Assembly: GCA_963920765.1 (NCBI GenBank)
Contig: OY987242.1
Span: forward strand, 19,616,002 to 19,680,001
Direction: 5' to 3'
DNA length: 64,000 nt
DNA from: Ulota crispa
Taxonomy: Eukaryota; Streptophyta; Bryopsida; Orthotrichales; Orthotrichaceae
Position 1 is the stretch's first letter. Each line of letters starts with the position of its first letter. The position numbers and the translations under genes are program-made. Positions 1 through 64,000 of this stretch are shown here, piece after piece. A model generated the notes under the pieces. That model searched no databases. It saw only the letters and a program-made list of their open reading frames with translations, and had not been told where the DNA came from.

Positions 1-900
1 TGGGATTTTGGGCATGTAATTTTGGATAAGCTAAGTACTTTGTGTGATTTTTTTAGATTTTTATTGAAGGTGGGGAATTTAGAGATCTACATGGGCATCT
101 AATTTTTTCTTCATTTGGACATACAACAAAGAAGTTATGCAAAAATTTCTTGAAAATAGGGGTGGAGGGGCAATTTGGGTAGCCCAAAAAACTTCATTGA
201 AAATTGCACTTTTAAAATATAAAGTTAGAACTGGTTCTTTAGATTTTTTTTACATGAGAAGCTTTTCATCATTCAATATCAATCAATGGCATGAAAGTTA
301 TGAGGAGTTTTTGTTTGCTGGCAATTATGGATTCTCTACTCTAAAATAAACTTTAAAGTCCTTTATTTTATTCAATTTTCAATATTTTGGAAAAAAATCA
401 AACCAAATGAAGTAGATTGTTTATCACAAATTATAACTATTGGGATTTGCATTTTTCATTTTAGTAATTAAATTCTTAACAATTTAGTATTTTGACTCAT
501 TCTCTACTTCATTTTACTTGATTTTTTACCCATGTGTTGTATAGTTCCAATTGATTTGAAAATCCTCCCACATACATCTAGCTTAATCTCCTACATGGAT
601 TAATAAAAGCACAACTTTGAGTAGAGCAATTTTTTTCATGTAAGAGAAGTCACATGCTTTTGTAATTTACTAGTAGCAAGGTAAAAGACCTTTTCCCTTT
701 ACGTCATATGTAGATATCTTGCTCCTCTCCATCTAGAATGACTTGATTTTTTTCCCATAAGTTCCTCTTCAAGTCAAAGGCAAGAGATCCTATAGTTGGA
801 ATTCCCAAAAAAAAGAAAAAATCTATCTTTTTACTTAGCTCTTAGAAGTGGCAGTTTTTAGTGATTATGGCAATAAAAAAAGGGCCTAGTCCTTTAGGGG
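1..900. mobile_element. TTAA-flanked MITE (piggyBac-like), cut by window start
   Basis: The right end reads TAGTCCTTTAGGGG followed by TTAA at 901-904. The body matches, in reverse orientation, the element at 7610-8454, including the shared stretch near the end (CACTAAAAACTGCCACTTCT on the other strand). The first bases of the window match the subterminal part of the other end (GGGCATGTA, then a CTTTGTGTGATTTTTT stretch), so only about 50-60 bp of the left end should be missing. No transposase is visible. The small open frame at 137-349 lies inside the repeat and is not taken as a gene. Confidence 0.6.
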
Positions 901-904
901 TTAA

Positions 905-7598: not shown

Positions 7599-7609
7599 TT
7601 AAGAGTTAA

Positions 7610-8454
7610 CCCCTGAAGGATCAGGCCCTATTTTCTGCCACAATCACTAAAAACTGCCACTTCTAGGAGGTTTAGTAAAAAGGAATTTCATGTTTTGTTT
7701 TTGGGAAATCCAACCATAGGGTCTTGCCCCAAACTAGAAGAGGTCAAGAGGTACTTGTGGGGAAAAAATCAGCTCATTCCAAATTGAGAGGAGCAAAATA
7801 TTTACATCTAAAGTGAAAAAAAAGGTTTTTCTCCATGCTACATGAAAATTTTAGAAGCCTTTGACCACCCTTGTAACAAAAAAACTGCTCTACCTAAAGT
7901 TGCACTTTATTTTTTCCATGTAGGAGATCAAGCTAGGTGTATGTGGGAGGATTTTCAAATCAATTGGAACTATACAACACATGGGTAAAAAATCAAGTAA
8001 AATGAAGTAGAGAATGAGTCAAAATACTAAATTGTTAAGAATTTAATTACTAAAATGAAAAATGCAAATCCCAATAGTTATAATTTGTGATAAACAATCT
8101 ACTTCATTTGGTTTGATTTTTTTCCAAAATATTGAAAATTGAATAAAATAAAGGACTTTAAAGTTTATTTTAGAGTAGAGAATCCATAATTGCCAGCAAA
8201 TAAAAACTCCTCATAACTTTCATGTCATTGATTGATATTGTATGATTGAAAGCTTCTCGTATATAAAAAAAATCTAAAGAACCAATTTTAAATTTTTATT
8301 TAAAAGAAATTTAATTTTTAAAAAAGTTTTTGGATTGCTTGCACTATCCCTTGTCCCTCAATAAAAGTTTTAGAAAATCACACAAAGTAGTTTAGCCATA
8401 GGTACATGCCCAAAGTCCAACTTGTCCTCTGAAGGGACAATGGTCATTTAGGGG
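7610..8454. mobile_element. TTAA-flanked MITE, 845 bp
   Basis: It begins CCCCTGAAGGATCA after TTAA (7606-7609) and ends TGGTCATTTAGGGG before TTAA (8455-8458). The ends are inverted repeats of the CCCCTAAAGGACCA type, with a longer subterminal inverted similarity. No transposase is encoded. It is the best full-length partner of the element cut by the window start. Confidence 0.7.
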
Positions 8455-8458
8455 TTAA

Positions 8459-16474: not shown

Positions 16475-17682
16475 TGTTGCAACTACTATTGTGAGTAGAA
16501 ATGGAAAACTTGCAAATGTTTTCATGTAGCAAGCATATTTTGAACCTTGTGAGAGCATGGCAACTTAGTTATTACAAGATATTCATTACAATGATTGTTA
16601 GCATATGCAAGTTAAGTTGCTTTCTCATATTGCTCATGGACCTTGTAAAGCACAAAGTTTGCTACATTTTTCACAATAACCAGCTAAAATGAACATTCTA
16701 AACTATTTGAGGCTTTCAATTTGTTATGTGTAAGTCTTTTTGCTAATCCTATGTTGTTGAGCATTGCAAGTAACGACTTTGTATATACTTCATGTAAATT
16801 TGAGGTGGAAACAACATCCTAAATTTTTTGGTAAACATAACTGCCTTCAACACAAAACATTGCAATGTGACCAAAGTGAAGAACAAATTTTGTCCCTACT
16901 TTCACAAATTGGTATTTATAGCTAGACAATCACGTTGATTTCAAATATTTAGTGTCAAAAGCAAAAGAACTATTTCTTGAATTTTGATTTAGTGTATTGT
17001 AGATTTCTCCTTTGTTTGAGCAGAGCGTATATACATCGAACGGTTCCAAAAAAAATTATAATTTTTTCATGTTGCAAAATATGGCTTAGCCTTTGCTTGC
17101 CCATTCTAGTTAATATGCCAAAAACAAATCAATTCAGCTGCACACAAAGAAACATGTTAAATACCTACCATTAGTGCAAGACTTTTATGTCATATAGCCA
17201 CAATTAACCTCTAAATGCCCGTTGCCCTTATAAGGAACAAAATGGATTTTGGGTAGGCATGTTATATAGGGTTTTCTCATCAATTTTCCTGATTTTAAAT
17301 TTTTAAATAGGATTTTGCAAGGGCTACATGGAGATGTAATCATTATTGAAACTAGATTTATAGCTCAAAATTCATTGGTGTTTTATGGGTTTTTGATTCA
17401 ATTAAAAGGCCAAGCATGTTAGTTTTTTTAATTCTTTCAAGGGCAATCGATGAAGGAATGACCCTTCATTGGAGAATATCCAAAACACAAATGCATTAAT
17501 TAAACTTATTATGTATTAGATAAATAAAATAGCTTTTGAAATGCAATAGCTACTAGAGATTTGGTTTTTTTTCAAAAAAAATTGTGATTATCAATGAAAG
17601 TAAAGTCTTTTAATCTTTTGGTTGGTGTTTTTAGTTAAAAAAAAAAACCACTAAAAATATGGTTTGCAAAAAGCCTTACCGT

Positions 17683-17948
17683 AGTATGAATTTCAAGCAC
17701 ATGATTGCAATGCATGCCCATGTAGGGAATATTTGAAGTATTTGTTGGACATGAGAACTTGTGGAAATTTGCCTAATATGATTTAGAGCATGTTCGAAAA
17801 GTTTCTCTTGCATCTGTAATGCAAAGAATGTCGACCACACGTAGTCAAAGGGGCTTGAGAAATATGGATAGATAAAAAGAACTTTGCATGTTAACTCCAA
17901 ATGATCATATTCTTCAATCCGTATGGTCAAACCACATGCCCTCCTTGC
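17683..17948 (-). CDS. possible exon of an unidentified gene
   Basis: The segment lies between an acceptor (TTATGCAAG) and a strong donor (CTACG followed by GTAAGG). It reads GLTIRIEEYDHLELTCKVLF then SPFDYVWSTFFALQMQEKLF and a Leu/Ile-rich helix, ending KFILR. Both borders and the composition fit a coding exon. No family is recognised, and neighbouring exons could not be joined by phase. Confidence 0.35.
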
Positions 17949-17950
17949 AT

Positions 17951-18521
17951 AAGTATAATGTAAGATCTTATGGTTGGATTTGCAAAAAATAGAAGTGTTT
18001 TTCTTGAAACCAAATGTTTTAAAATAGCAATTTTGGGTGATTTTGAGGAAAAAATGGGCTTAAGCTTGTAGGAGTTAAAAAACTAAACAAAAAAATTACA
18101 ATGAAACATAGGGGGCTAAAAATATGCCTACTATACATAAAATAGGGTCATTTTGAATACAAAAGCAAGGTAAATAGCCCTACATCAAAGAGCCTTATAA
18201 CTTGAGTGAACACGAAAAATTATAAGGAGTGATCTCCCCCAAGCTAATAAGCTTAAATTTGCTTTTGAACTTATTGAATGTTATATTATTTTAAAGAAAT
18301 TAAAATCCACAATGATTTGCAAAAAATAAGAATTAGTAATACCCGAAAACAGTGTGCTCCACGGTTGAAGGTAGTTTCGGTGTACATCGGGTCCTTCAGT
18401 ATAAAAAATCCCATGTGCCCTTTCAATGTAGTTTTGTATCAATGGACACGAGAATTTGCAAGATCTCCACTTACAAATGTCCATAATTAATAGGCAAGCC
18501 CTAGAATTTAACTCATACCAG
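17951..18521. other. spacer upstream of tRNA-Val
   Basis: AT-rich DNA with no gene supported. The overlapping short frames at 18278-18547 run into the tRNA and are not taken as genes. Confidence 0.4.
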
Positions 18522-31117: not shown

Positions 31118-32662
31118 TGTGCGACGTTAAATTGTATCCACAAAAGTGGGCCGAGCCTACGTGGAACTTGGGGTAGGGCAAGGGCTCAGCTGCCCAAACA
31201 CGACCCCATTCCTTGTCAAGTCTCGTCAAGCCCTTGTGTTCTGCGCAATACGGACCTTGTTAGACCCCTGTCAGACCCCTCCATCCTGCGCAATACACTT
31301 TGTCAGCTCTCTTGACAAAACAACTTGTAAGGGAGTGGGGATTTATCCCACATTGTTCAGCGTTGTGGGTGAGTTACTTTGGGTACAAGAAGGATCACTT
31401 GAAAGAGAAGAAACACACATTCAATTGCATTTCTCTCTAAGCAAAAATCTACACCAAGAGCAAGAATTACCAAGCACCACAATCTACAAAGTTCACCCTT
31501 GCAAAGCTTCACAAACTACTTGATAAAAAATTCAGCAAGTTTTCAAATTGAATGTATGTGATAATGTCACAAAAAGTGGAGATGTGATATTATGGAGGTC
31601 AAGATGTGATATTACAAAGGTCACTATAAATGTATCTACAATATCACACAAAGTGAAGATGTGATATTAAAGAGGTTACGCTATGATACTATAGTGATAT
31701 TAAAGAGGTTAGGCTATGATATTAAAGAGACTAGGCTGTGATGCTACAAAAATCATTGAGATTTGAGTAGTATCCTTAGTAGCAGCACTATTCTCTTTAA
31801 CCCTTTAAAGACAAGGCAGCCCTTTGCAACCTATACAATATGATGTATTTTCTTGTATTTGGAGAGTATCCACACCTTTATTACATTTGAGATCAACAAA
31901 GAAGTTAGAATATAGATCAATGCTATTCTAGTGAGGTAGTCAAGATCCCAAATTGAAAAAAAATTGTTAGAAGCCAATGCCAGTTATACAACAGCGTACA
32001 TAATATGTATAATAGTAGCCCCAACCTTTAAGGGTTAATATCACAGCCTAGCCTCATTAAGATCACATCCTAACCTCTTTAATATCACTATAGTATCATA
32101 GCGTAACCTCTTTAATATCACATCTTCACTTTGTGTGATATTGTAGATACATTTATAGTGACCTTTGTAATATCACATCTTGACCTCCATAATATCACAT
32201 CTCCACTTTTTGTGACATTATCACATACATTCAATTTGAAAACTTGCTGAATTTTTTATCAAGTAGTTTGTGAAGCTTTGCAAGGGTGAACTTTGTAGAT
32301 TGTGGTGCTTGGTAATTCTTGCTCTTGGTGTAGATTTTTGCTTAGAGAGAAATGCAATTGAATGTGTGTTTCTTCTCTTTCAAGTGATCCTTCTTGTACC
32401 CAAAGTAACTCACCCACAACGCTGAACAATGTGGGATAAATCCCCACTCCCTTACAAGTTGTTTTGTCAAGAGAGCTGACAAAGTGTATTGCGCAGGATG
32501 GAGGGGTCTGACAGGGGTCTAACAAGGTCCGTATTGCGCAGAACACAAGGGCTTGACGAGACTTGACAAGGAATGGGGTCGTGTTTGGGCAGCTGGGCCC
32601 TTGCCCTACCCCAAGCTTTGCATAGACTTGGCCCACTTTCGTAGGCACGATTTAACGTCGCG
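31118..32662. mobile_element. foldback / Mutator-like non-autonomous element, 1.5 kb
   Basis: Two inverted arms (31118-31796 and 32039-32662) surround a 234-bp MITE. From about 31186 inward the arms are nearly identical, so both encode the same spurious frame (SCPNTTPFLVKSRQALVFC and onward). The outermost 70 bp or so are more diverged. CATTAAGGT is present at both borders (31109-31117 and 32663-32671), a perfect 9-bp candidate target duplication. Long inverted ends plus a 9-bp duplication are typical of Mutator-like elements. The inner arm is rich in GATGTGATATTAAAGAGGTT repeats. No transposase is encoded. Confidence 0.7.
31801..32034. mobile_element. TTAA-flanked 234-bp MITE inside the foldback
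   Basis: It begins CCCTTTAAAGACAAGG after TTAA (31797-31800) and ends CCAACCTTTAAGGG before TTAA (32035-32038). It is near full-length kin of 43564-43796. Removing it with one TTAA restores CTCTTTAATATCAC, a unit of the host repeat. It forms the whole spacer between the foldback arms. Confidence 0.75.
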
Positions 32663-32671
32663 CATTAAGGT

Positions 32672-38735: not shown

Positions 38736-39890
38736 TTTTTTAAACTCTTATGTAAAAATTCATGTCAAATATGACAGTTGAAGATTGATTTTTTTTCTAG
38801 TGTAGTTGAAGTTCTTATTACAATTTCAACACCGATTTCCACTTTGATAAATTATGTTTTAACTCAACAGGAACTCCCATTCTCATAGTTTAGCCTTTGA
38901 TCTTAATGTTTATTCTTATTTCACTACCCATACTTCCATTTCCATAGTAGACCAATTATGAATGCAATGAAGATGGTAAACAATACAAGGTAACACATAA
39001 TCAAAAAATTGCATTGCCTAGTACTGTAGTAAGTTTGAGCAAATTGAAAACCTAAATGTTTCTTTACAAATCAATATTGAAAATCAACCCAAATAATTTT
39101 AGAATATTTTTAGGTTGTTTAGCCTAAAAATCATCAAGTCCAACATGTTAAGACTTTAAGTTACAATATTACGTTAGTAAGTAATATGGTAGTCAATGGA
39201 TTTGTAAAACCCTATGGCATTCTTTATTTTAGAATAAGCTTTTCAATCAATTGTAGAACCTTGGCATATGTTATAAGATTCAATAACTTTTTGACACTTG
39301 TCGCTAGCAATAATGAGTTGTATAGAGCTTTTCAACTTGAAAATCTCTTTGATTAGTAGGTTTTTGAGACTCATTTTCTTTTCATAAGTTTTTTTTTGAA
39401 TGAGTACAATTTAAAGTATCTACTTTTTGTATCCTTATACTAGAGATCTTATACCAACCCTTTTTTTTACCATTTTAGAGCCAAGTTGCACCATTTTAAA
39501 AGAATTCTCAACTAGAGAGGCTAGAGATTATAGTTTTTAGTAAAACTATTTTAAAGTCTTGTAAAAGTGTGGACGAAATCGATGTGGTGTACAAAAGAAA
39601 TTTGCAATTAAAATTGGATTTTTTTTAAATTTTAAATTGACTACATACCATGTCACAATGATTTATACACAATATTTGCAACAAATAATATCCCATAAAC
39701 ATACAATTATAAATTTCTGCACGAAATGAGGTGCAAAGTATTTGGGACTTATTTGAGCTAAAAAAAAAAGGTTCAAGATTTCTTTTTGAAACTGGTTTTA
39801 TTGAATTCCTTCAAATATACAACATATTGCAAATGACATATGAAAATCTGATCTTTTGCAAGAGTTATTGAAAGTTCAATGTTTTTGGAA
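38736..39890. other. upstream flank of the FSIP1-like gene
   Basis: AT-rich DNA with no gene supported. It should contain the promoter of the minus-strand gene, but no clear TATA or other motif stands out. Confidence 0.4.
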
Positions 39891-40302
39891 GGGAAGTGAA
39901 ATGTACACATAGGGGTTGATATATGCACACCCCCTTGGGGAGTAAATTATAGATTCATGAAAAAGCTAAACTTGGGAATTTTGAGTTTCAAATTTGGACT
40001 TAGAGACCACGATTTAATCTAAAACCATAAAACCATAAAAAAGGCTGCAATTAAACAACACCCAATGAAAAAAATTATTGTTTTTTACAAACAAAAGCAG
40101 AAGTAACACATTTCCCCCTAGCTAAGCATTGCCATTGGGTGTTGTTCAATTGCAACCTTTTTAATGGTTCTAGACAAAACCATGGTCTTGGAGTCCAAAT
40201 TTGAATTCAAAGTATCAGATTTAGGATTTTCATGGTAAAAAATCTAAAATTTACCCCTGGGGTGTGCATATAACAACCCCTTGTGTGCACATATCAATTC
40301 CC
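39891..40302. mobile_element. MITE with GGGAATTGATATATGCAC-type ends
   Basis: This 412-bp element has inverted ends (GGGAAGTGAAATGTACAC on the left; GGGAATTGATATGTGCACAC on the other strand at the right). A second inverted block lies inside (GATATATGCACACCCC against its complement). The interior shares TTAAACAACACCCAATG-like sequence with the copies in intron 8 and at 57894. Confidence 0.7.
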
Positions 40303-40850
40303 TTTTGGAATTTCAAAGTTTTTTTTTAATGGAATGTTCAATCCTTCAATATTTTAACAATCATCCAAAACTTCGATTATTTAAATCGTATTTTCTTTTG
40401 TTCCTCTCTTGTTTTGCTATCATATGTATTCTTCAATAAAAATATAAGTGACATCATATTCCAAACCTATGTAATTAAAGTAAATCCATACAAGTGCATA
40501 AAAAACAAAGCGTGCAACTCAAAATCACAAACAATTCTTTAAGATGCATTCAAACTAGCAAATACAAACATTGTAAAATACTTGTGTATGGAAGATTGTA
40601 GAATTCTTGCAATCCTATCAAGTAATTCAGTTTCCTTTTTATGGCTTTCTGCATTTGCTACACGCCGCTTTTCAAGTCTAACAAAAACACTCTAAGAATT
40701 GTTGGGCTCTACATACTTCAATGCTTGAGTCATTGTGGCCTCCACTTTAAAAAATCACACAATCCATAAGTGATTGTTAATTAGCATCAAAGCTTTTGAA
40801 CCACAATATCCTAAAACTACCCCACATGACAAATAGGGTGGATGAGCTTG
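40303..40850. other. spacer, no recognised gene
   Basis: AT-rich DNA between two MITEs. A weak minus-strand reading near 40620-40720 (around ACACGCCGCTTTTC) could be decayed coding sequence, but no exon borders support it. Confidence 0.35.
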
Positions 40851-40854
40851 TTAA

Positions 40855-41510
40855 CCCCTCAACACCCTTGGCATTTTTTAATATCTCAAAATTTGCTTGG
40901 AAATGAACAAAATGTTGACATTTTTATCAATTTTATCAAATTTTTTTGAAGCGCAACCGTACAAATTCAAGACAGACATGCAAGTAGACATGTTGGAGAT
41001 CACATTAGAAAAGAAAACACAATAATATCTGTTATGGATTGAATGATTATAATGTTTGATCATGAGGGTGCTAAAAGTGTAAAACTGATTTGAAGTCTTT
41101 CAATCCTCTTTTTGCATCTCAAATTTAAAATTGAGGGTATCCAAAAAATATGAGTATATAAAGTATAACATGCATAACCCCAATCAATCTACGGTTTCTC
41201 AAAATCTATTCTACAAATTTTTAAATTGAACTTTAAATGTGATTTTTTCTCCAAGTTGTAGTGTACTTGAGGCTCATTCCCAAGAGCCTTCAACACTAGA
41301 AAGTGAAGATTTGCAATAGACGCCCTTGGGCAAAATCTTGATAGACAAATCACTTTAATACATTTTCAAAATCAAACTCCTAATGCTGAAATGAGACTTC
41401 AATAAGAGTTTAAAAATATAATAGCCACTAAAATAAATCTTGAAGAAATGTTGTGCATCTTTAAATAAAATTCAGATGGGTGCAATTTGAGCTCCTTGGG
41501 CCTTGAGGGA
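40855..41510. mobile_element. TTAA-flanked MITE, 656 bp, diverged
   Basis: It begins CCCCTCAACACCCTTGG after TTAA (40851-40854) and ends CCTTGGGCCTTGAGGGA before TTAA (41511-41514). The ends are imperfect inverted repeats of the same pattern as 7483-7598. No coding capacity is visible. Confidence 0.55.
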
Positions 41511-41876
41511 TTAAACATGCTTTTAGGCTTATGAGGTCTTGATTCCTATTGATTTTGCTAATTTGATGGGAGAAACAGAAACTCTCACCATTGATGTAGG
41601 TGTCGTCTCAAGCTTATTGTTAGAATTTGTTGTGGCTTAGTTGTGGCAGCCAATCACATGTATTATATGTATGTATTAAAACTTTGGTAACCCCTAAAAG
41701 ATGTTGTTGTATTGTATACGCTCTCCTGTGTTGTATATGAATGGGGTACTTGGGTAGCACCTGAATCCCATTGGCGTTGTAAATTTTAAGCCAAGTCATA
41801 AACATACTATTGGTCACATGAGATTTTCTGGGGAATTTTTGGCATTTGTCATAAAGCCATTTATTCAAATTATTAA

Positions 41877-42343
41877 CCCCTAAAGGACCAAGCTCCCTTT
41901 TGGGGGACAAATGCAATTTTGGGCATGTACCTATGGCTAAACTACTTTGTGTGATTTTTTGAAACTTTTGTGAATGATGGGGAATTCAAATGTTTACGCA
42001 GGCATCTAATTTTTCCTTCATTTTGACGTTTATTGAAGAAGTTCAAAATGAATTTCTAGAAAATGGGCAAAATCAGGCAGCCCAAAAACTTTTTAGGAAT
42101 TGCATTTAAGAAAAATAAAAATATGAAATAGGTTCTTTAAACTTATATATATGCGAGGAGTTTTGAACCGTTCAATTTTCATTGATGAGATGAAAGTTAT
42201 GAGAAATTTTCATTTGCGGGTAGGTGTGGTTTTGGGACCCCATAATCCATCAAAAGTTTCAAAAAATCATACAAAGTAGTTTAGCCAGAGGTACATGCCC
42301 AAAATTGCATTTGTCCCCCATAGGGACAATGGTCCTTTAGGGG
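41877..42343. mobile_element. TTAA-flanked MITE, 467 bp, best-preserved copy
   Basis: The terminal inverted repeat CCCCTAAAGGACCA is perfect at both ends and lies between TTAA at 41873-41876 and TTAA at 42344-42347. Inverted similarity continues for about 100 bp (GGGGGACAAATGCAATTTTG, then GGCATGTACCT and GGCTAAACTACTTTGT on both ends). This is a short non-autonomous element with the TTAA duplication and CCC-type ends of piggyBac-like transposons. Confidence 0.85.
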
Positions 42344-42412
42344 TTAAATGATCCTTGTATGAACACAACCAACACTTTTGGTAGGCATCATCCTTTAGGG
42401 GTTAACCCTTAA

Positions 42413-43344
42413 CCCCTAAAGGCCCAAGGATTTTTCTCTAGAGAAAATCACTGTTAATTGCCACTTTGGGGGAATGAGTAGAAAAATAGGAAATAAAGTT
42501 TGTTTTGCAAATCCAACCATAGGATCTTGCCTTGGACTAGAAGAGGTACTTGTGGGAAAAAATTAGGTCATTCTAGATTGAGAGGAGGGAGATATTTACA
42601 TCTAAAGTGAAAAAAAAGGTTTCTTTTTGTGATGCCCAAAAAATTTCAGAAGCCTTTGTCCATACTTACATGAAAAAAATTACTCTACACAAATTTGAGG
42701 TTTATTTTTTCCATGTAGAAGACCAAGTTAGGTATGTGTGGGAGAATTTTCAAATCAATTGGAACTATACAACACATGGGGGAAAATAGTAAGTAAAAAG
42801 AAGTAGAGAATGAGTCAAATCTCTAAATTGTTAAGAATTTAATTATTAAAATGAAAAAATGAAAATTCCAACAGTTATAATGTTGTGATAAACAATCTAC
42901 TTCCTTGAGTTTAGTTTTTTTTCCAAAATATTAAACATTGTGGAAATAAAGGACTTCAAAGTTTATTTTAGAGTAGAGAATCCATAACTGGCCACAAACT
43001 CAAACATCTCATAACTTACATCTCATTGATTGAAGTAGAATGATTCAAAGCTTCCCACATATAAAAAAATCTAAAGAACCAATTTCAGATTTCTATTTTT
43101 AGAAAATACAAAATTTTAAAAAGTTTTTGGGCTACCTGGATTGCCCTTCCTCCCTGGGGCAGCAAAAATTCTTGCATAACTTCTTTGTCAAATGTCAAAA
43201 TGACAAAAAAAATTAGATTTCTAGGTAGGTTTTGGAATTCTCCACCTTCAATAAAATTTTAAAAATCACAAAAAACTAGATTAGCTATAGGTACATGCCC
43301 AAAATCACAACTATCCCCTTGGGGGACAACTAAGCCTTTAGGGG
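42413..43344. mobile_element. TTAA-flanked MITE, 932 bp
   Basis: It begins CCCCTAAAGGCCCAAGG after TTAA (42409-42412) and ends TAAGCCTTTAGGGG before TTAA (43345-43348). The size and interior match the 926-bp copy at 55599-56524 only in part, but match 7610-8454 well (CTGCCACTT-like block, TACTTGTGGG block, CATTCTAGATTGAGAGGAG block). No transposase. Confidence 0.75.
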
Positions 43345-43348
43345 TTAA

Positions 43349-43559: not shown

Positions 43560-43563
43560 TTAA

Positions 43564-43796
43564 CCCTTGAATGACCAAGCAGCCCTTTGCGACCAATACA
43601 ATACATGTATTTTTCTTGTATTTGGAGTGCGTCCACATCTTTATTACATTTGAGATCAACAAAGAAGTTAGAATATGGATAAGTGTTGTTCTAGTGAGGT
43701 AGTCAAGGTCCCAAATTAAAACTTTTTGTTGGTAGCAAATGCCAGTTTTACAGCAGCCTACACAATATGTATTATAATAGCTCAATCCTTTAAGAG
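43564..43796. mobile_element. TTAA-flanked 233-bp MITE
   Basis: It begins CCCTTGAATGACCAAGCAGC after TTAA (43560-43563) and ends CAATCCTTTAAGAG before TTAA (43797-43800). The length is one base from the 234-bp copy at 31801-32034, and the order of blocks is identical, so the two are clear siblings of one subfamily. Confidence 0.75.
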
Positions 43797-43813
43797 TTAA
43801 ACAAACAAATATG

Positions 43814-44064: not shown

Positions 44065-44504
44065 TTAGCACATGCAGTAGCCAATCAGCCTCAGAGGTTA
44101 CCAAGAAAAAAAAAAAAAAAAACACTGAGTCAATGCTCTTTTGGGCACCTTGTAAATTTGCTGCCCTGCTTCTTCGGATTCCCTGCCGGTGATGTTGGGC
44201 AGGAATTTTTTCAGAGTGCCCTTGGTTGGGCAGTATAACCACAGCGTAAACTACTCTAATAAGACTAAAACCCACCGTTGCGATTGGATGCCACCGGCTG
44301 CGACCGGTCGCTTACTGGGGACTGGAAATCTACTATTGTCGAGATCTACGATTTGATCCGAGATCTAAGTTTGAGTCAGGGGCGAGAGAGACGACTTTGG
44401 AACATGGTGCCGACGGTGGAGAGGGAGAGGGTCTGAAGCTCAGGAATGCTGGGACTGGGAGGTGTTGCTCTTGCGAGGGTTGTGACTTCGGATTCAGGAT
44501 CACA
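44065..44504. promoter_or_regulatory. probable promoter and leader of glucosidase II alpha gene
   Basis: GC content rises from about 44280 toward the start codon. A run of A residues at 44105-44121 and a GTTAC-rich region precede it. The coding frame is open upstream of the chosen ATG (44505) to 44397, but an earlier start would bury the signal peptide. No TATA box is clear. Confidence 0.4.
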
Positions 44505-52168: not shown

Positions 52169-54192
52169 TGAGGTAAGTCTTCGTGTTGCTTCTCAAGGCT
52201 TGGTCACATTGGTCTGACCTAACAGCACTTTGATGTCGTGTTCCGTCAATAGTAGAAAATTGTCTTGTAGCTATTTGGTGGTACGGTGGGGTTGTAGCTT
52301 TTAGAGATAAGAGTGTTTCAACAAAAATTTGGCGACAGGGAACACAACCCCAAATCCCCAAATCGCCAATGTTCAAACATCACGGTTGACTCAAATTTAG
52401 TGCGCTTGTAGATTATATGTTTTGTCCTTGAACATTAGCCCTTTGATATATTCAATTGCTGTGGAACTTCTCCCCGACTATTAATACTGAGGTCAAAGAA
52501 ATTTCCTAGGGGAGGTGTATCTTGTCAACCAGTCCTGTCCTGCCACCTGCCCCTTGACCGGATTCCCTGTCGAGGTTATGGCCAGATTCGACATTAATCA
52601 ATTAGTTTCTGCAAGCCACCTGCAGCTCGCGCCCTCATATGATTGATCTCGAGTCTCGACGCCGATCAGTGAAAATATTTTGGATAAAGTGGCCTTAGAG
52701 CTTCCCAGCCTTTCTCTCCAAACGGAGGACTGGAAACGGATTTTTCCGTGTGACTTTTCCTGTGCAGGGTGTGGTTCCGGACGGGGTCTAGCTTGACTTG
52801 CCAAAACGAGGATGAAAACAGAAAATTGTGAGATCACTGTCTAGAATCATCGAAAGCAATATGCGCTGGCAGCGGGTAGTGCCACAGCAGCAAACAAGCT
52901 TCCAAAATAAGAACACATCAAATTTCCTGGACACGCTGAAAATTGACGTCTTAGAAGAGAAGTTTGGCAAGGCCGGGAGGAATTTCCAGTTTGGCATGTC
53001 CTCGCTGGGTCCGTATTCGGCATCTTCGCTAGCCCGGGCCCGGAGCTTCTTTATCTGGTGAGCAAGGCTGGAGCTGCTCTTAGCTTGTTTTTCTAACCAA
53101 AAAATGGTTGAGTAGCAAGGATGGCTACATTTTTTTATAGATGTAAAGTTGGATGCTTTCAACTTTTCATCAAAGTTATATCTCATGATGGTTTTGTGAG
53201 AAATTAGAATGTTGCACTAGTTGGGTGAGGTGACATCAAGTGGAACCCTAAAAACCGGGCTCCTACTCCCAAACCCGTGTATAAAAGTTGGCTAAATATT
53301 TTACATTTTCTCAAAAAATACTACAAAACAATTAGCTACACCAATTTTGGTGTAGCAAAAAAGCAATAATTAGCACAAAATAATTTCACTGCAGCCGATG
53401 CTAAAGAAGGTGACGTCAATATTGTTGTTTTTATGGATGCAGAGTCAAAGACAAATAAAAACAAAATAGAAATAGGGTTTTCTTTTTGTAGTGTAGATGA
53501 TTAGGAAAACGCTACGTGCCTTATCAGGGTAGGAGAATTTTTAGAGAGACAAAAGTCAATTGACTAATATCAAATTTAGAAAAGTCAAATTTGGCGTTTA
53601 AACGCCAAAAGAAAAAAAAACCTTGAACATAACTAGATTGCCCTGTAAGGATACCTTTCCATGGGGGGCTCTTGTAAGGATACTTTTCCATGCAGGGCTA
53701 GAGGGATCCGACCTAGACATCCAACCTCTCATTTTGCAAAAGTCAAACTACATCCCTTGAGGGCCTAGACCCAAGATTGGAGGTGACTTTCTAAACTCTA
53801 CACATCATGAAAATTTCAAAAAAAGTTCTCCATTTTGCCCGTGGTCAACTTGGATGGGCCTCCGGTTCCAATTACTCATGGCAAGGTACCCTAAGGTAGA
53901 CATACTCATACCTGACCGTTTAAGGGTTTGGGGTACTTCAAGGTTTCGAAAAATTTAGGAAAAAAATCCAAAGGGTTAGCATTTCAATAATCTATCATGG
54001 AAAATAATTTTTGTGGAAAAAATAGTGTAGGTTATTTTATAATAGAGGGCAAAGTTGCAGCCTATAGGGTCCCTAGCTATTAGTAACTCTTAACTAACCT
54101 TGAAACTAATTGGATGTGTTCTTACAATGGCACTTGACAATCCTAGTTCCAACCCTCCCAAAGCAATATAGCAAGCTCCACTTTGGGTTTAA
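52169..54192. other. spacer with one coding-like patch
   Basis: At 52788-53060 the minus strand reads a plausible protein stretch (AHQIKKLRARASEDAEYGPS, EDMPNWKFLPALPNFSSKTS) in GC-rich DNA. I recognise no family and no exon borders. A CTTTTTGTAGTG motif at about 53480 resembles one CACTA end. The remaining sequence shows nothing supported. Confidence 0.35.
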
Positions 54193-54660
54193 CCCCTAAA
54201 GGACCAAGCCTTTTTTTTTTGCCAAAATAACTGAAAACTGCCACTTTTGGGGGAGCTAGTAGAAAGCTAAGGAATTTATTTTTTTTGAAAATCCAACCAC
54301 TGGATCTTGCAATAGACTACTAGAGGTACTTGTGGGACAAAAATTAGCTCAATACACATGGAGAGGAGTGAGATATTGACATTTGAAGTGGGAAAAAAAA
54401 ATTCATCCCACCCAAAAATTTCAGTGGCCTTTGACCACTCTTAGAGCAAAAAAATTGCTCTATGCAAAGTTGAGGTTTATTTTTTCCATGTTGAAGACCA
54501 AGTTAGGCTTGTGTGGAAGAGTTTTCAAATCAATTGGAGGTGTACAACATACCTCAAAAAATCTTGCAATGTTGGAAGGTACTGAAATTTGCAAATACAC
54601 TATGCAAAATTGGAAGCTTTATAGAAGATTCAAAAAATTAATTTCACTAATCCAGTTGGT
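54193..54660. mobile_element. TTAA MITE, left part only
   Basis: CCCCTAAAGGACCAAGCC follows TTAA (54189-54192), and the next 400 bp match 42413-43344 (TGCCACTTTTGGGGGAGC, TACTTGTGGGACAAAAATTAG, GAGAGGAGTGAGATATT). The second half is absent, so the copy is truncated before the palindrome begins at 54833. Confidence 0.65.
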
Positions 54661-54839
54661 AAAAACCTAGGATTCTTAGCCTAATACAACAAGGGAGAAA
54701 AAAGTTTACAAATAGCTAAAATAAATAAAAAAACAAAAATTAGAAAAGGGCAGGAAGAATGGAGGGTTTAGGGGTCCATGGCACGTGTCCCCTCCACTCC
54801 ATCCTCCCACCCTTTTTTGGCAAGCAGCACAGTAGGGAA

Positions 54840-54985: not shown

Positions 54986-55036
54986 AAAAAGAGTTCAAGC
55001 TCCAAGATATAAAATGTGCCCCCATTAGTGAGTGTC

Positions 55037-55405: not shown

Positions 55406-55598
55406 GAAATTAATGTTACCACTAACCATACTACTAAAATCTCAATTACCTTTGTAATATCACATCCTAACCTCTTCAATATCACATCTCCATTCTTTGT
55501 GATATTATGGATACAATGATAGTGACCTTTGTAATATCACATTTGACCTCTTTAATATCATATCGTACCTTCTTTAATACCACACCCTACCTCTTTAA

Positions 55599-56524
55599 TC
55601 CCTAAAGGACCATTGTCCCTACGAGGAACAAATGGAATTTTGAGCAAGTACCTACGGCCTCAATTTTTGTCTTGTTTTTTTGAAACTTTTTTTTGAAGGT
55701 AGGAATACACATTTACTTTTGGGGAATCAAAATTTTTTTCCTTGTTTTTTTCCAATCAATGCCAGGGAGCAAAAGTTTTGCCCAAATAAGCACAAATTTT
55801 GGGAATCTAGGTAGCAAAAAAAATTTATACAAAAACTCAAAATATATTTTTAATTTTCTTTCTCATAGATTACATCTTTATCAACATCTAAAGCTTTGAT
55901 TCATTCCATTTGGACTACTCATGAGAAAGTTATGGACAATCTTGTTTTTAGGGCAATTCAAGCATCTTCTTGAAAAATAACTTATAAACTTCTTTTTTGA
56001 ATGCAAGCCTAACATTTTTTCAAAAAAATTGTTGGAGAGGGTGAAGTTTGCTTTCTAGAACAACCTCACTATTGGGATTATTCAATTCCATTGCATGGTT
56101 ATTAGCAATTTAAGTTTTTGTTCAATCTCATACCTTCTTCTACCTAATGATTTTTTAAAGAATGAAACTTAAGTACTTTTTGTTCTAATTCTTTTCCCAA
56201 GATTCCCAACTCAACTTTCCACCACAAAAAAAAAAGTTCCAAAATTTATGGTGCAAAAAATTTAAGTTAAAAAAGTTCAAAGTCAAATAACATAGTCATG
56301 CAAGGTGCAAAAAAACTTGTTTTTTGCACTTTAAATGCAATCATCATCCAATTTGTTTGGTCAAAGTTCTTGAGTTTTGTAGGACATATTTTTATACTAG
56401 TCTAGTAAAAGATCCTATGGTTAGATATGGAAAATGATCAATTTTCAGACATTTTTACGCTTTGCCTTAGAAATTTCAGTTTTGAGTGTCTTTTGACAAA
56501 ATAAAGGCTATGGTCCTTTAGGGG
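55599..56524. mobile_element. TTAA-flanked MITE, 926 bp, inside the palindrome
   Basis: TCCCTAAAGGACCA follows TTAA (55595-55598), and TGGTCCTTTAGGGG precedes TTAA (56525-56528). The flanks CCTCTTTAA and TTAATATCACACCCTA rejoin to a normal unit of the surrounding repeat. The inner end of the palindrome arm (56429) falls 95 bp short of the element's right end, so the arm formed after the insertion. Confidence 0.75.
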
Positions 56525-57390
56525 TTAATATCACACCCTATTGTCCCTACCCTCTTTAATATCACAAACTTTGCGTGAAGTAGTGTTTAGGATTTAGTAG
56601 TGAGAGGAGGTTAGCATGCTAGAAGAGAGCTACAAGATCACTTGGTAACTTATATAAAAAGAGACCATAACTAGGTTGAGTAGTCAACCACCTCTAGAGG
56701 TAGGTGATAAAGTTATCATACTTGATAATTCGCAAAAGTGGTTGAGTTATGGGATGAACCTGGCCAAAGTTATCCGGTGGGAAACACCAAAAATTAGCTA
56801 GGTTTGACACCCACTATTCACCTTGTAGAAATTCACAACCTCGAGCTAGACTATTTGTACTACATTGAAAATCACATTTCTAATCATGTTGATCAAATTC
56901 TGCAGTTGCTAGGACAAAAGTTTATGGTGAAAGAGTTTGCTAGTGCTGTTAGAGGCTTAGCTATGGTAAGAATCAACTCTCTCTAAAAAGATAATTTTTC
57001 TCAGCATCACCACTCTTGGCAACAAAAAAGACTAGTGGCAATATTTTCTTCAAGCAACATTTACGCAAGCTAAGGGCCTTTGGCCTCTCGCACAGGCAAT
57101 CCCACAATTGTGGCACTAGTTAGTTATTCAAGCTTTACCCTTGTTCCCAATGACTTAAACGTGAGAATGCCCCTTGCGTGAAGCCGTTACCCTACATGTT
57201 GTAATTATGCATGTTCCAATTCCTCTCACCAATCACAACACGCTCCCACATTTTGGCCAACATATTCTTCACCTACACCTTGTCTACCAAGAGATTTGAA
57301 CTTCACCGGCAAAATCCAACATTTCTCACTTTCAATTGGTCTTCTTGAGTACATGCAATATTGCACGTAAACTTTATACTACATCTATAT

Positions 57391-57677: not shown

Positions 57678-57893
57678 GAAGACATTGTAAAAAAGTAAGC
57701 CAATTTTTACTCAACAAACTCAAAATTTGACCAATAATATTACCATTTCACTTACCTAACTTCCTATTGTTTTCTTTAACCTCTCCACTCATTGCCTACA
57801 ACACGGTTCCAAGAAAATTAGACAGTAAAAAAATAGGTCTTTCATGCCAAGCTATCAAGGTGTAATAGCAACAGGTACTCCTCAACAAAACTT

Positions 57894-58778: not shown

Positions 58779-61047
58779 AACTTGTTTTTTGCACTTTAAA
58801 TGCAATCATCATCCAATTTGTTTGGTCAAAGTTCTTGAGTTTTGTAGGACATATTTTTATACTAGTCTAGTAAAAGATCCTATGGTTAGATATGGAAAAT
58901 GATCAATTTTCAGACATTTTTACGCTTTGCCTTAGAAATTTCAGTTTTGAGTGTCTTTTGACAAAATAAAGGCTATGGTCCTTTAGGGGTTAATATCACA
59001 CCCTATTGTCCTACCCTCTTTAATATCACAAACTTTGCGTGAAGTAGTGTTTAGGATTTAGTAGTGAGAGGAGGTTAGCATGCTAGAAGAGAGCTACAAG
59101 ATCACTTGGTAACTTATATAAAAAGAGACCATAACTAGGTTGAGTAGTCAACCACCTCTAGAGGTAGGTGATAAAGTTATCATACTTGATAATTCGCAAA
59201 AGTGGTTGAGTTATGGGATGAACCTGGCCAAAGTTATCCGGTGGGGAAACACCCAAAAATTAGCTAGGTTTGACACCCACTATTCACCTTGTAGAAATTC
59301 ACAACCTCGAGCTAGACTATTTGTACTACATTGAAAATCACATTTCTAATCATGTTGATCAAATTCTGCAGTTGCTAGGACAAAAGTTTATGGTGGAAAG
59401 AGTTTGCTAGTGCTGTTAGAGGCTTAGCTATGGTAAGAATCAACTCTCTCTAAAAAAGATAATTTTTCTCAGCATCACCACTCTTGGCAACAAAAAAGAC
59501 TAGTGGCAATATTTTCTTCAAGCAACATTTACGCAAGCTAAGGGCCTTTGGCCTCTCGCACAGGCAATCCCACAATTGTGGCACTAGTTAGTTATTCAAG
59601 CTTTACCCTTGTTCCCAATGACTTAAACGTGAGAATGCCCCTTGCGTGAAGCCGTTACCCTACATGTTGTAATTATGCATGTTCCAATTCCTCTCACCAA
59701 TCACAACACGCTCCCACATTTTGGCCAACATATTCTTCACCTACACCTTGTCTACCAAGAGATTTGAACTTCACCGGCAAAATCCAACATTTCTCACTTT
59801 CAATTGGTCTTCTTGAGTACATGCAATATTGCACGTAAACTTTATACTACATCTATATTGAATATTGCATTTATGTTGCCTTATCCTAAAAAATTTACCT
59901 CATGCCAATCATCACTTGACCACTTGGAGGCGCATGCAGCTCTCTAGAACTTGAATTTCACATGGTTCACATCTTGAATGCCTGTAATTTATTTATTTTG
60001 CAATGTTGTTGTTGTAGTTGTCAAGCCCTTTAAAAAATGTTCATTGCATTAATTATTGATGAAGATGACTGCAGCAGCGGTAAATATTTATACTGTGTAA
60101 AATGCCAAGAAATTAGTGTGGGGCACCCTAAATGCAATACCCGGTGAAGACATTGTAAAAAAGTAAGCCAATTTTTACTCAACAAACTCAAAATTTGACC
60201 AATAATATTACCATTTCACTTACCTAACTTCCTATTGTTTTCTTTAACCTCTCCACTCATTGCCTACAACACGGTTCCAAGAAAATTAGACAGTAAAAAA
60301 ATAGGTCTTTCATGCCAAGCTATCAAGGTGTAATAGCAACAGGTACTCCTCAACAAAACTTGGGAATTGATATGTACATATCTAGGGTTTGATATATGCA
60401 CACCATGGCGGGGTAAATTTTATATATTTACCCTCAGTAAGTTGATTTTGGAAAATTTGCATTCAGATTTGGGTTTAGAGACCTTAATTAAATCTAGAAC
60501 CACAAATGAGGTTTCAAGTAAACAACAACAACTGAAAAAGCTAAACTAAAGAACAAATGATTACTTTCACCTTGATTTATATAAGAAGTTTAGTTTCTCC
60601 AATGGCTGTTATCCTTTTGTGGTTCTAGCATATCTAACCATAGGATCTTTTACTAGACTAGTATAAAAATATGTCCTACAAAACTCAAGAACTTTGACCA
60701 AACAAATTGGATGATGATTGCATTTAAAGTGCAAAAAACAAGTTTTTTTGCACCTTGCATGACTATGTTATTTGACTTTGAACTTTTTTAACTTAAATTT
60801 TTTGCACCATAAATTTTGGAACTTTTTTTTTTGTGGTGGAAAGTTGAGTTGGGAATCTTGGGAAAAGAATTAGAACAAAAAGTACTTAAGTTTCATTCTT
60901 TAAAAAATCATTAGGTAGAAGAAGGTATGAGATTGAACAAAAACTTAAATTGCTAATAACCATGCAATGGAATTGAATAATCCCAATAGTGAGGTTGTTC
61001 TAGAAAGCAAACTTCACCCTCTCCAACAATTTTTTTGAAAAAATGTT
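58779..61047. repeat. second copy of 56314-58578, probable assembly duplication
   Basis: It runs in the same direction as 56314-58578 for about 2.27 kb. The differences noticed are single-base changes in homopolymer runs (for example GTCCCTACC against GTCCTACC, GGTGGGAAACACC against GGTGGGGAAACACCC, AAATTTGG against AAATTTTGG). It includes repeat appearances of all the elements in 56430-58160. Confidence 0.8.
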
Positions 61048-62225
61048 AGGCTTGCATTCAAAAAAGAAGTTTATAAGTTATTTTTCAAGAAGATGCTTGA
61101 ATTGCCCTAAAAACAAGATTGTCCATAACTTTCTCATGAGTAGTCCAAATGGAATGAATCAAAGCTTTAGATGTTGATAAAGATGTAATCTATGAGAAAG
61201 AAAATTAAAAATATATTTTGAGTTTTTGTATAAATTTTTTTTGCTACCTAGATTCCCAAAATTTGTGCTTATTTGGGCAAAACTTTTGCTCCCTGGCATT
61301 GATTGGAAAAAAACAAGGAAAAAAATTTTGATTCCCCAAAAGTAAATGTGTATTCCTACCTTCAAAAAAAAGTTTCAAAAAAACAAGACAAAAATTGAGG
61401 CCGTAGGTACTTGCTCAAAATTCCATTTGTTCCTCGTAGGGACAATGGTCCTTTAGGGATTAAAGAGGTAGGGTGTGGTATTAAAGAAGGTACGATATGA
61501 TATTAAAGAGGTCAAATGTGATATTACAAAGGTCACTATCATTGTATCCATAATATCACAAAGAATGGAGATGTGATATTGAAGAGGTTAGGATGTGATA
61601 TTACAAAGGTAATTGAGATTTTAGTAGTATGGTTAGTGGTAACATTAATTTCTTTAATATCACACCCCACCTCTTTATTATCACAACCACCTCTTTAATT
61701 GACACCCTCCCGCTTTAGTATCACACCTACCCTCTTTAGTATCACACCCTCCCTTTGTAGTATCACACCCTCCCTCTTTAGTATCACACCCTACCTCTCT
61801 AGTATGACACTCTACCTCTTTAGTATCACACCCTACCTCTCTAGTATCACACTCTACCTCTTTAGTATCACACTCTACCTCTTTAGTATCACACTCTACC
61901 TCTCTAGTATCACACCCTCCCTCTTTAGTATCACACCATAACCTCTTTAGTATCACACCATAACCTCTTTAGTATCACACCATAACCTCTTTAGTAACAC
62001 ACCATAACCTCTTTAAGTTTTGACACTCACTAATGGGGGCACATTTTATATCTTGGAGCTTGAACTCTTTTTCTCAACATGAATGCAGTGCCACTAAGCT
62101 CAAGTGGCTGAGCTGGCAGGCTCTAGCCTGGGTCTCCCACAAATACCCGCCCTCAACCAGCAAGGCAGGCTCGGGTGGCCCAGAGTTCGGGGCATGACGA
62201 AGCGTGGCTGTTTTGGTATTCCCTA
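60629..62225. repeat. right arm of the large palindrome, 1,597 bp
   Basis: Mirror image of 54833-56429, with the inverted MITE (end CCTTTAGGGATTAA near 61460), the inverted 21-bp array (about 61653-62021) and the SINE-like stretch at its outer end. The flanks beyond 62225 and before 54833 differ, and no clear target duplication is found. Confidence 0.9.
62074..62218 (+). mobile_element. tRNA-derived SINE-like fragment (right arm copy)
   Basis: An A-box-like TGGCTGAGCTGG at 62105-62116 and a weak B box AGAGTTCGGGGC near 62183, as in the left arm copy. Tentative. Confidence 0.35.
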
Positions 62226-63573
62226 GTAGGGTGCAGCTACTATGGGCTGGCCATGTGACACGCAAGCCGGGCCTGCATTGTGGTATCAGAGGCCCGGGGG
62301 TGGGCCTGCATTAACTTCCCTTGCGACTGATAGGCCGGATTCTCAAAATTATGAAGCCGGGTCTAGACATCTTCACCCAACCTTCTTTGCCCAATCTTGT
62401 TGCATTCTCCTACCCTTGAAAGTTGCCCCTTTTGCTAGTCAACTCTCACATACAAAACGAAGGCCTTGCCCAAATTGCCCCTTCTTCCCTTGTTTTGAAA
62501 AATTCTTCATAACTTCTTTGTCAAATGTCAATATGAAGAAAAAGTTAAATGCTCGCGTAAGTCTTGGAATTCCCCACATTCAATAAAAGCTTTAAAAAAT
62601 CACAAAAACTAATTGAACTATAGGTACGTGCCCGAAATCCATTTATCCCTTGAGGGGACAGTTGATCTTTTAGGGGTTAAGAGTGGACAATGAACACCTC
62701 AAAAATAAGGTGCGAAATTGGGGAGCGGTTGGAAATGGGTGTGCATACCTTACATGAAATAGTTCTTCCGATTTCCGAAGCGTTGGATTTGACCTGTAAT
62801 TATGATTGTATGGGTAGGCCACACTATTGGACTGCGATGCCTGTCACGTCTTTTGTGCACACCATCGTACCCTTCATGAGTAAACCGAAGTCTCTGAAAC
62901 TCACACAGTCTGCGAAGCAAAAACCTGTGGCTATGGCCTGTGGGTGGTAGCAAAATCTGTGGAATCACTGGAGTGAAGGCATGTGATCCGCTTTAAACGG
63001 GTACTGTTCACCCCCCAACGTGATCCCGATTCTGGACTCACTCACAAATAGCCGACCCCAGATTTCTGGGCTTCACAAAATACCGTGGGAGGATGAGGAC
63101 GATTTGTCACCAGATTCTCGCACTTCTCTCAAGACCGGGCCTGCTCGAATTTGGACTGAAAACCATCTCTTTACATCAACCCTACTGCTGTGATTGAGAT
63201 TTTCTTTTACTTGTTAGAACTAGGTATGGACTATTCTTATAATTATAGACTTTTTCTGCCCCCAAATATTTGGAGATCTTCTCATATTTTGAATGTATCT
63301 TTGGATGTTTTGCAAGTATCTCCTGATGTTTTGCAAGTTTGTCCTAATGTTGTGCAAGTTTGTCCTAATGTTGTGCAAGTTTGTCCTAATGTTGTGCAAA
63401 TCAAAGTTATTTTTGGATTAATACTCATGGACATTGGGTAGTCCATAAGTGATTAAGTATGTCACAAGAACATTTTTTTTTTAAAAATTCTCTAACATGA
63501 TAATTTCAAAAGTTTATGGGTGCCAAAAACAATAGTATTAATCCGTTGGTTTTATTTATCCTTCTTGACAATT
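62226..63573. other. mixed spacer with MITE fragment and tandem repeat
   Basis: At about 62430-62660 a MITE fragment ends GATCTTTTAGGGG before TTAA. The frame at 62690-62950 is GC-richer and somewhat protein-like (EALDLTCNYDCMGRPHYWTA) but has no recognised family or exon borders. A 21-bp tandem repeat lies at about 63296-63400. Nothing else is supported. Confidence 0.4.
63296..63400. repeat. 21-bp tandem repeat
   Basis: The unit TTTGTCCTAATGTTGTGCAA plus G is present about three times perfectly, preceded by two diverged units (ATGTTTTGCAAGTATCTCCT type). The QVCPNVV repeat peptide is a by-product. Confidence 0.85.
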
Positions 63574-63577
63574 TTAA

Positions 63578-64000
63578 CCCCTAAAAGACCAATTGTCTCC
63601 TCGGGGGACACTTGGGATTTTGGGGATGTATCTATGGCTAAACTACTTTGTGTGATTTTCTTAAACTTTTATGAAAGATGGGGATTTCAAGGATCTACGT
63701 GGGCATCTAATTTTTTCTTCATTCTGACATTTATTAAAGAAGTTATGCATGGATTTCTGAAAAACAAGGATGGCAGGCAACCCAAGAACTTTTTCAAAAA
63801 TTGCATTTTTTTAAAATAAAAAACTGAAATTGGTTCTTTAGATTTACACATATGTGGGAAGCTTTGAATCATTCAATTTTGATTGATGAGATGAAAGCCA
63901 TGAGAAGTTTTAGTTTGCGGGTAGGTATAGGACTCCCAAACCTCCATTCCTTTTGCCCCTTATAAAATTTGGTGCTTTACTTTTTGAGCTCTTTGTGTAT
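63578..64000. mobile_element. TTAA-flanked MITE, cut by window end
   Basis: CCCCTAAAAGACCAATTGTC follows TTAA (63574-63577). The next 400 bp match the family (TATGGCTAAACTACTTTGTG, GATGAGATGAAAGCCATGAG, TAGTTTGCGGGTAGG). The right end lies outside the window. Confidence 0.7.

Follow-up and report, generated by a model that had tools for sequence, protein, structure and literature searches.

Within a 64,000-nt stretch of a moss nuclear genome (hereafter the window), repeats with CCC...GGG termini lie between TTAA tetranucleotides, and this locus raises the question of which transposons they belong to and which enzyme moved them. Our analysis leaves very little doubt that the repeats are non-autonomous members (MITEs), arisen by deletion and fold-back, of piggyBac cut-and-paste transposons resident in the nuclear genome. 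The observations that bear directly on this reading are the TTAA targets, the common ends, the catalytic triad and the copy number.

Both strands of the window were searched for TTAACCCCTAAAGGACCA with up to 3 mismatches, which returned 21 matches, against a mean of 0.10 and a maximum of 1 in 100 dinucleotide shuffles; the ends in the window are far more numerous than chance would give. With end profiles, five members of the main family were recognized as complete (7606-8458, 17204-18078, 41873-42347, 42409-43348 and 55595-56528), and all five have TTAA at both flanks (Table 1). A first-pass annotation of the letters had described one MITE family with at least eight copies between TTAAs. The ends that it saw are real, but the copies at 31797 and 43560 (31797-32038 and 43560-43800) are not members of the main family and represent a separate family of approximately 242 bp with CCCTT ends, and the copy at 40851/41511, which does have TTAA at both ends, gave no match to any of the three principal end profiles. 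Its copies at 7606, 42409 and 55595 proved to be complete, with TTAA on either side and the boundaries given above. The ends that it placed at 901 and 63574 are genuine (904 and 63574) but lie in copies cut by the window edges, and the divergent, complete 875-bp element at 17204-18078 was missing from its list. The idea of a single family was not borne out; there are several families with one common end. In the best copy, which we call the focal element, TTAA is followed by CCCCTAAAGGACCA from 41873, and the exact inverse of CCCCTAAAGGACCA finishes at 42347. The perfect 14-bp inverted end and the approximately 100 bp of subterminal likeness ascribed to this copy were both recovered, the inverted terminal similarity measuring 91.0% over 111 bp. 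The first C is mutated in the 55595 end (TTAATCCCTAAAGGACCA) and in the right end near 41511 (TTAATCCCTCAAGGCCCA, 41497-41514).

Table 1. Elements and element ends in the window, and parent elements elsewhere in the assembly
Feature	Position	Strand	Remarks
MITE, start lost at window edge	1..904	-	right-type (F) end at 904, F-end profile E 1.4e-24; 77% to 43309-42409
Complete 853-bp A/F MITE	7606..8458	-	F end 7606, A end 8458; TTAA both flanks
Divergent complete 875-bp A/F MITE	17204..18078	+	TTAA both flanks; E 2.8e-8 and 3.4e-9 with nhmmer end profiles
242-bp MITE, second family, CCCTT ends	31797..32038	.	adjoins TTAA-containing 22-bp minisatellite; 84.8% to 43560-43800
Other element with CCCCTCAA ends	40851..41514	.	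TTAA at each end; none of the A/B/F end profiles match
MITE with CCCCTAAAAGATG ends, host of focal insertion	41687..42405	.	248 bp minus insert and one TTAA
Focal 475-bp A/A (left-end/left-end) fold-back MITE	41873..42347	.	one arm truncated; perfect 14-bp inverted ends; TTAA both flanks
Complete 940-bp A/F MITE	42409..43348	-	end profiles; TTAA both flanks
~242-bp CCCTT-ended family, second copy	43560..43800	.	84.8% to 31797-32038
F-type end with exact 14-bp terminus	54189..54549	+	E 7.8e-33; 361 bp resemble 42409-42774; partner end not found
Complete 934-bp A/F MITE	55595..56528	+	within TTAA-containing 21-22-bp minisatellite; TTAA both flanks
F-type end	58976..58993	-	copy of 56528 end, other side of N gap
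A-type end	61446..61463	-	copy of 55595 end
A-type end at 62680	62474..62680	-	E 2.8e-31; 79.8% to 43140-43348; partner not found
A-type end, element continues past window end	63574..64000	+	E 4.1e-36
Parent f16	C3:27054300-27062805		8,506 bp; TCAA left, TTAA right
Parent f3	C7:11814404-11822436		8,033 bp; nested 926-bp MITE inside
Parent g72	C9:12440860-12449389		8,530 bp
Parent g73	C8:11097229-11105483		8,255 bp
Parent g74	C5:3044791-3052748		7,958 bp
Parent g75	C1:38394082-38402104		8,023 bp
Parent g77	C9:10758322-10766277		7,956 bp; TTAT left, TTAA right

The window also holds repeats of other kinds. A 200-N gap (58579-58778) is flanked by a 1,597-bp inverted repeat with 100% identity (54833-56429 / 62225-60629) and has a 2,270-bp direct repeat around it with 99.7% identity (56314-58578 / 58779-61047); these repeats are probably an assembly artefact that duplicated transposon ends. 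Another inverted repeat, with 625-bp arms that are 97% identical (31118-31742 / 32040-32664), encloses the 31797-32038 element and contains a 22-bp minisatellite with TTAATATCAC. A separate self-complementary repeat family of approximately 410 bp, to which no type was assigned, occurs at 33991-34401, 39889-40304 and 57894-58116, and also near two transposase loci (L004 41-446 and L046 452-844).

We searched the whole assembly (274,817,297 bases, 157 contigs) for the common end. The exact 14-bp end occurs 8,876 times (4,405 + 4,471), and a reversed-pattern control gave 0. The same end preceded by TTAA, the search that the first-pass annotation had recommended as a check, was found 7,555 times (3,781 + 3,774), which is 85.1% of the exact ends, again with 0 in the control. 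When an 18-mer was allowed up to 2 mismatches, the count rose to 33,777 (16,847 + 16,930; control 12), from which we infer approximately 17,000 elements in the genome if each has two such ends. In a test of insertion preference, 16 ends were found to adjoin the minisatellite motif TTAATATCAC, which was counted 2,363 times against 1,400 for its reversed-pattern control.

To reveal empty sites, the joined flanks of 58 candidate spans were searched against 360 kb of fetched sequence, and unoccupied counterparts were found for three window elements (41873-42347, 31797-32038 and 55595-56528). The clearest of the three is that of the focal element. Its host MITE (41687-42405) has an unoccupied copy at L071 2685-2926 (80% over 244 alignment columns), in which one CTAA stands where the focal element has a TTAA on each side, and TTAA is therefore the target. 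The joined flanks of 31797-32038 run through a single TTAA in their alignments with window 55469-55359 (79%) and L070 1946-1848 (80%), as do those of 55595-56528 with L070 1916-2006 (81%); for these two elements, the counterparts are minisatellite repeat units and not orthologous insertion sites, and TTAG is present in many further units. The first-pass annotation had allowed that TTAA might be part of the element itself. The unoccupied sites, which contain it singly (once as CTAA), did not bear this out. Because TTAA is palindromic, empty sites by themselves fit either a 4-bp target site duplication (TSD) or a TA or TTA duplication with an A or T borne by the element. A complete MITE at L015 574-1518 is bordered on both sides by a direct ATAA repeat instead of TTAA, which fits a 4-bp duplication and is possibly a non-canonical target duplication; a 4-bp TSD is assigned from this element and from the transposase family. 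Among 31 complete short elements from the window and fetched loci, a non-random sample drawn from the window, the first 30 end loci of C1 and regions near transposases, in which L021 and L023 look like one duplicated element, TTAA was present on both sides in 25, on one side in 3 and on neither in 3, L015 being one of the last.

Searches with the piggyBac transposase profile PF13843 gave at least 120 scored matches on C1-C11 (116 scored of 528 candidates) and none in 14 control genomes (0/14), and by this profile the moss genome encodes many predicted piggyBac transposases. In the first 12 transposase loci (L001-L012), taken with approximately 1.5 kb of flank, the CCCCTAAAGGACCA end was not found; one of them, L003, was recognized as the parent-lineage gene f3 once more flank was read. 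Two genes, T16 (f16) and T3 (f3), were picked through their ends, the downstream F-type end coming first and the upstream A-type end after extension of the flank, and six further genes of this lineage (52-56% protein identity to f3) were fetched blind to their ends. Both ends were present in 5 of the 6 blind-chosen genes and in 7 of 8 overall, with A upstream and F downstream, inverted, and 7,956-8,530 bp apart. TTAA flanks both sides in 5 of these 7 parents. The alignment of g74 runs end to end at 90-92% with g75 and at 84% with g77; thus, the 8-kb unit itself has been copied. Several findings count against the overall reading: no recognisable A/F end pair spans the gene in g76, the left flanks of f16 and g77 read TCAA and TTAT, and the catalytic triad is mutated in g75 and g77.

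A stop-free stretch of 363 aa in f3 matched PF13843 with an E value of 3.2e-44 and, among PDB entries, matched 6x67 (E 1.8e-17) and piggyBat 9c0f (E 1.2e-11). The entry 6x67, named only 'Transposase', we take to be Trichoplusia piggyBac. The aspartates of the f3 motifs TIDE, LDNF and GVD align with positions 268, 346 and 447 of the 6x67 chain, and D268, D346 and D447 are described as the catalytic residues of Trichoplusia piggyBac in PMC7351741. The triad is DDD in f3, f16, g72, g73 and g74 (5/7), DDN in g75 and DNN in g77. By eye, a Cys/His-rich tail resembling the piggyBac CRD (CxxC...CxxC...C...CF..H-like) was seen in 6 of the 7, partly degraded, with partial coverage in g75 and no separate Pfam CRD match. 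A conserved acidic stretch (e.g. g75 1127-1666) with no Pfam match precedes the catalytic part by approximately 3.5 kb and appears to be an N-terminal exon followed by a long intron. Stop codons fall within the matched stretch of each of the eight genes but f3, whose wider PF13843 match has two, and introns may inflate these counts; the coding copies examined are interrupted. The proposal that a piggyBac-like transposase stood behind the elements gained support, since the longer copies bounded by these ends code for a DDD piggyBac transposase, and the contrary outcome, an autonomous copy with an unrelated transposase, was not what these members carried.

Other coding lineages of piggyBac have different ends. 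T1 and T10 end in CCCCTCATYGCC...CCCTTCATTGCC, T6 in CCCTTGACCGCC...CCCTTCACCGCC and T5 in CCCTTTAGGGACC...CCCTTTAATGACC. The left boundary of T1 is TTAA followed by CCCCTCATCGCC and its right boundary is GGCAATGAAGGG followed by TTAA; T10 is 90% identical to it over 5,029 bp (a pair of approximately 5.0 kb), and the left TTAA of T10 is mutated to TTCA. Because the T1/T10 gene elements bear other ends, several CCCYT-ended piggyBac lineages coexist in this genome. Among 16 loci of other piggyBac lineages, examined with shorter flanks, no A-upstream/F-downstream pair spanned the gene; one of them, the more distant relative T4 (43% identity), had none of these ends in its flanks, which counts against the overall reading. 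L046 was considered as a parent with a B-type end and rejected, the B end belonging to a complete 969-bp MITE beside the gene, and MITEs near T1, T3, T9, T15 and T18 were likewise not accepted as the ends of parents. Coding lineages with CCCYT ends of different sequence, the 5.0-kb pair among them, lie at L043/L001 with L044/L010, at L055/L005/L056 and at L057/L006. Hairpins of approximately 79 bp at L043 2622-2699 and L026 2645-2723 have CCCCTAAATGCCCA-like ends and TTAA flanks (ATAA on one side in L043) and are apparently minimal elements of another piggyBac-like family.

The MITEs resemble the parents well beyond the terminal repeat. L021 (916 bp) shares 89.4% identity with f16 in its initial ~190 bp and 88.0% in its terminal ~350 bp, and L037 is similar; the middle ~375 bp of both gave no alignment to f16. 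In the window, 42409-43348 matches the f16 ends at 77.3% over ~182 bp and 79.0% over 354 bp, and 7606-8458 matches them at 92.2% over ~100 bp and 71.3% over ~354 bp. Within the same non-random sample of 31 complete short elements, 26 combine an A-class end (A or B) with an F end, 5 are A/A and none is F/F.

Just inside the terminal repeat, we tested for palindromes against mononucleotide shuffles and positional controls, using 143 ends that remained from 170 after near-identical ones were merged. A perfect 7-bp arm at bp 14-38 was found in 17 of the 143 ends, where shuffling predicts 0.5 (no more than 3 in any of 200 shuffle sets), and 54 ends paired at 6 or 7 of the 7 positions, where 9.0 are predicted (no more than 18 in any set); other, partly overlapping intervals scored 0-12 (perfect) and 10-35 (at least 6 of 7), so part of the background exceeds that of mononucleotide shuffles. 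The palindrome varies with the type of end (TTGTCCC/GGGACAA, GTGGCTG/CAGCCAC or TTTTTTC/GAAAAAA). In the 21 A-type ends scored, the designated positions pair in 64% of cases, compared with 19-41% when the positions are slid. All seven pairs, with G-T allowed, form in only 5 of these 21, and the palindrome has thus often decayed.

Four fold-backs of 708-748 bp (L027 1497-2204, L031 1497-2244, L043 1430-2155 and L070 3240-3978) are palindromic over their full length and consist of two ~360-bp left ends placed head to head. Arm identity within each element is 78.5% in L027, 86.2% in L031, 95.9% in L043 and 93.2% in L070, and one element is 70-79% identical to another. Three of the four thus show a closer likeness between their arms (86-96%) than exists between elements. 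Left/left palindromes either recur at the same junction or have homogenised arms. The focal element is a derivative of such a left/left palindrome that has lost most of one arm.

On the piggyBac reading, the parents are elements of approximately 8.0-8.5 kb with the left (A) end upstream and the right (F) end downstream of a predicted DDD piggyBac transposase gene. The MITEs compared with them have lost this gene and keep approximately 100-200 bp of the A end and approximately 350 bp of the F end, and a minority of the complete MITEs, including the focal copy, are A/A fold-backs. The transposase presumably bound the 14-bp ends and the subterminal palindrome at bp 14-38, and may have used TTAA hairpins to excise the element before inserting it at TTAA again; MITEs would have been mobilised in trans by the parental enzyme.

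Alternatively, the MITEs might belong to Kolobok or Sola3, superfamilies whose target is likewise TTAA, and the piggyBac genes might be neighbours without any relation to them. Yet in 7 of 8 cases a piggyBac gene lies between these two ends, the elements so bounded carry PF13843, g74 is collinear end to end with g75 and g77, and the 16 loci of other piggyBac lineages, with their shorter flanks, gave no such pair; this explanation is largely refuted and strikes us as very improbable. A duplication of TAA/TTA or TA that mimics TTAA, as in MITEs of PIF/Harbinger or Tc1/mariner, would agree with the canonical empty sites, since a palindromic TTAA fits a duplication of 2-4 bp. Against this, conservation extends to the outer T and A, with exact TTAA at 85.1%, the ATAA of L015 is a direct repeat on both sides, and the transposase of the parents is PF13843. 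PIF/Harbinger (Tourist) elements are characterized by a 3-bp TWA target and symmetric ends; here, TTAA is conserved outside symmetric CCCC/GGGG ends, and we give this origin hardly any credence. The duplicated segment around the N gap does inflate the count in the window, but matches lie on C1-C11 (C1-C10 measure 15.8-41.4 Mb), C1 carries plant genes and the ends number in the thousands genome-wide, which makes contamination or an assembly artefact exceedingly improbable.

An alternative of another kind, compatible with assignment to the piggyBac superfamily, is that another piggyBac lineage of this genome (e.g. T5/T13, with CCCTTTARNGACC ends) was chiefly responsible for amplifying the MITEs in trans and that the 8-kb lineage is only a cousin. 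Several lineages with similar CCCYT termini do coexist, the identity of MITEs to parents is 67-92% rather than near identity, and for MITEs with B-type and GAGCCCA-type ends no parent was identified. In contrast, among the transposase loci examined, a match to the A and F ends beyond the terminal inverted repeat (~190 and ~350 bp) occurs only in the T3 lineage. We regard amplification by another lineage as unlikely, with the 8-kb T3 lineage as the preferred source.

Animal piggyBac-derived MITEs, such as those of Helicoverpa, are short derivatives of piggyBac-type elements. The moss MITEs differ from them in the kingdom of the host, and they comprise several subfamilies with one common 14-bp end and different subterminal palindromes. 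By the sequence characters that could be compared, the moss elements qualify as piggyBac and are unusual in their size, probable intron and host. TTAA is duplicated on insertion (three empty sites; 7,555 of 8,876 ends), the short inverted ends start with CCC, CCCCTAAAGGACCA standing at both, and a PF13843 DDD transposase lies within the same ends. They share with Trichoplusia ni piggyBac (6x67) and piggyBat (9c0f) the TTAA target, CCC...GGG termini, an alignable DDD transposase and asymmetric ends. Unlike the examples of the superfamily, the moss has elements of approximately 8 kb with a probable long intron, thousands of MITEs and left/left fold-backs. A compact element of 2-3.5 kb with a single uninterrupted ORF is typical of piggyBac without defining it, and here the ends are 7,956-8,530 bp apart. 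Terminal rules of CCYT and CCCT for piggyBac are given in PMC10175614 and PMC12732532, and the beetle elements reported in PMC12732532 range from 2,074 to 3,465 bp and have one ORF each. The palindrome to which a CRD dimer binds in Trichoplusia piggyBac lies at bp 17-33 (PMC7351741), immediately internal to the terminal repeat like the enrichment at bp 14-38 here, and by analogy the tail and palindrome of the moss elements may have a similar role. The same source states that the insect element requires asymmetric ends in cells and that a hyperactive enzyme shows some left/left activity.

We also put forward a broader proposal, tentatively and with more doubt than belief. Moss genomes may host a distinct plant radiation of piggyBac, made up of large intron-containing elements of approximately 8 kb whose lineage-specific subterminal palindromes are read by the C-terminal domain of the transposase, and which also spawn two-left-end palindromes of approximately 710-750 bp that transpose as such and keep their arms alike. 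If this is true, synapsis of two left ends, at which the insect enzyme is weak, would be productive in the moss.

The first-pass annotation called piggyBac-type elements little described in land plants. This is a fair statement but not an absolute one, since PiggyBac labels exist in some plant repeat tables. A review lists PiggyBac among angiosperm MITE superfamilies (PMC10004981), a repeat table for the fern Ceratopteris gives 1,230 hits and 122,417 bp (PMC6890710), and one for the grass Stipa gives one element of 75 bp (PMC8319324). The superfamily label is the same as here; in the portions of these sources consulted, it stands as a label or count, with no parent element or empty site. According to a 2025 paper, piggyBac is found widely in animals, fungi and protists but only occasionally in the genomes of plants, red algae being the example named (PMC12732532). 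Searches of open-licence papers returned none whose title describes native piggyBac elements in bryophytes, mosses included; PMC10619864 deals with 'expression piggybacking'. This gap in plants would be filled by a moss that has piggyBac MITEs in the thousands and several coding lineages. It would also offer a native plant system targeting TTAA for comparison with the insect enzyme used in biotechnology, which is discussed in PMC5505980 as a possible tool, as yet untried, in Physcomitrella. The natural variants of the end palindrome are test material for the structural model of asymmetric end binding.

Host genes accompany the transposons in the window, namely the proteasome subunit RPT2 (19741-22051), an SMP-30-like protein recognized by eye (28493-29786), a glycoside hydrolase 31 gene (44250-49633) and tRNA-Val (18522-18595). 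The likeness of the glycoside hydrolase 31 gene to glucosidase II alpha was judged by eye, beyond the Pfam family. An open frame of 513 aa at 36821-38362 had no Pfam match. A moss host is very probable from the genes themselves. PsaL of this genome scored highest with 8htu (381.6 bits), followed by 7xqp (330.8), 6l35 (320.8), 9lut (316.1) and 7ksq (309.9), and reached at most 287.3 bits with the entries from 7ew6 downwards; we take 8htu, 7xqp, 6l35 and 7ksq to be Physcomitrium patens photosystem I and several of the lower entries to be from seed plants or algae, and the chains compared differ in length. A LEAFY domain was also found (103.6 bits). RPT2 scored 285.4 bits with 8amz, which we take to be the spinach protein, against 225.9 bits with 12bm, presumably the human one.
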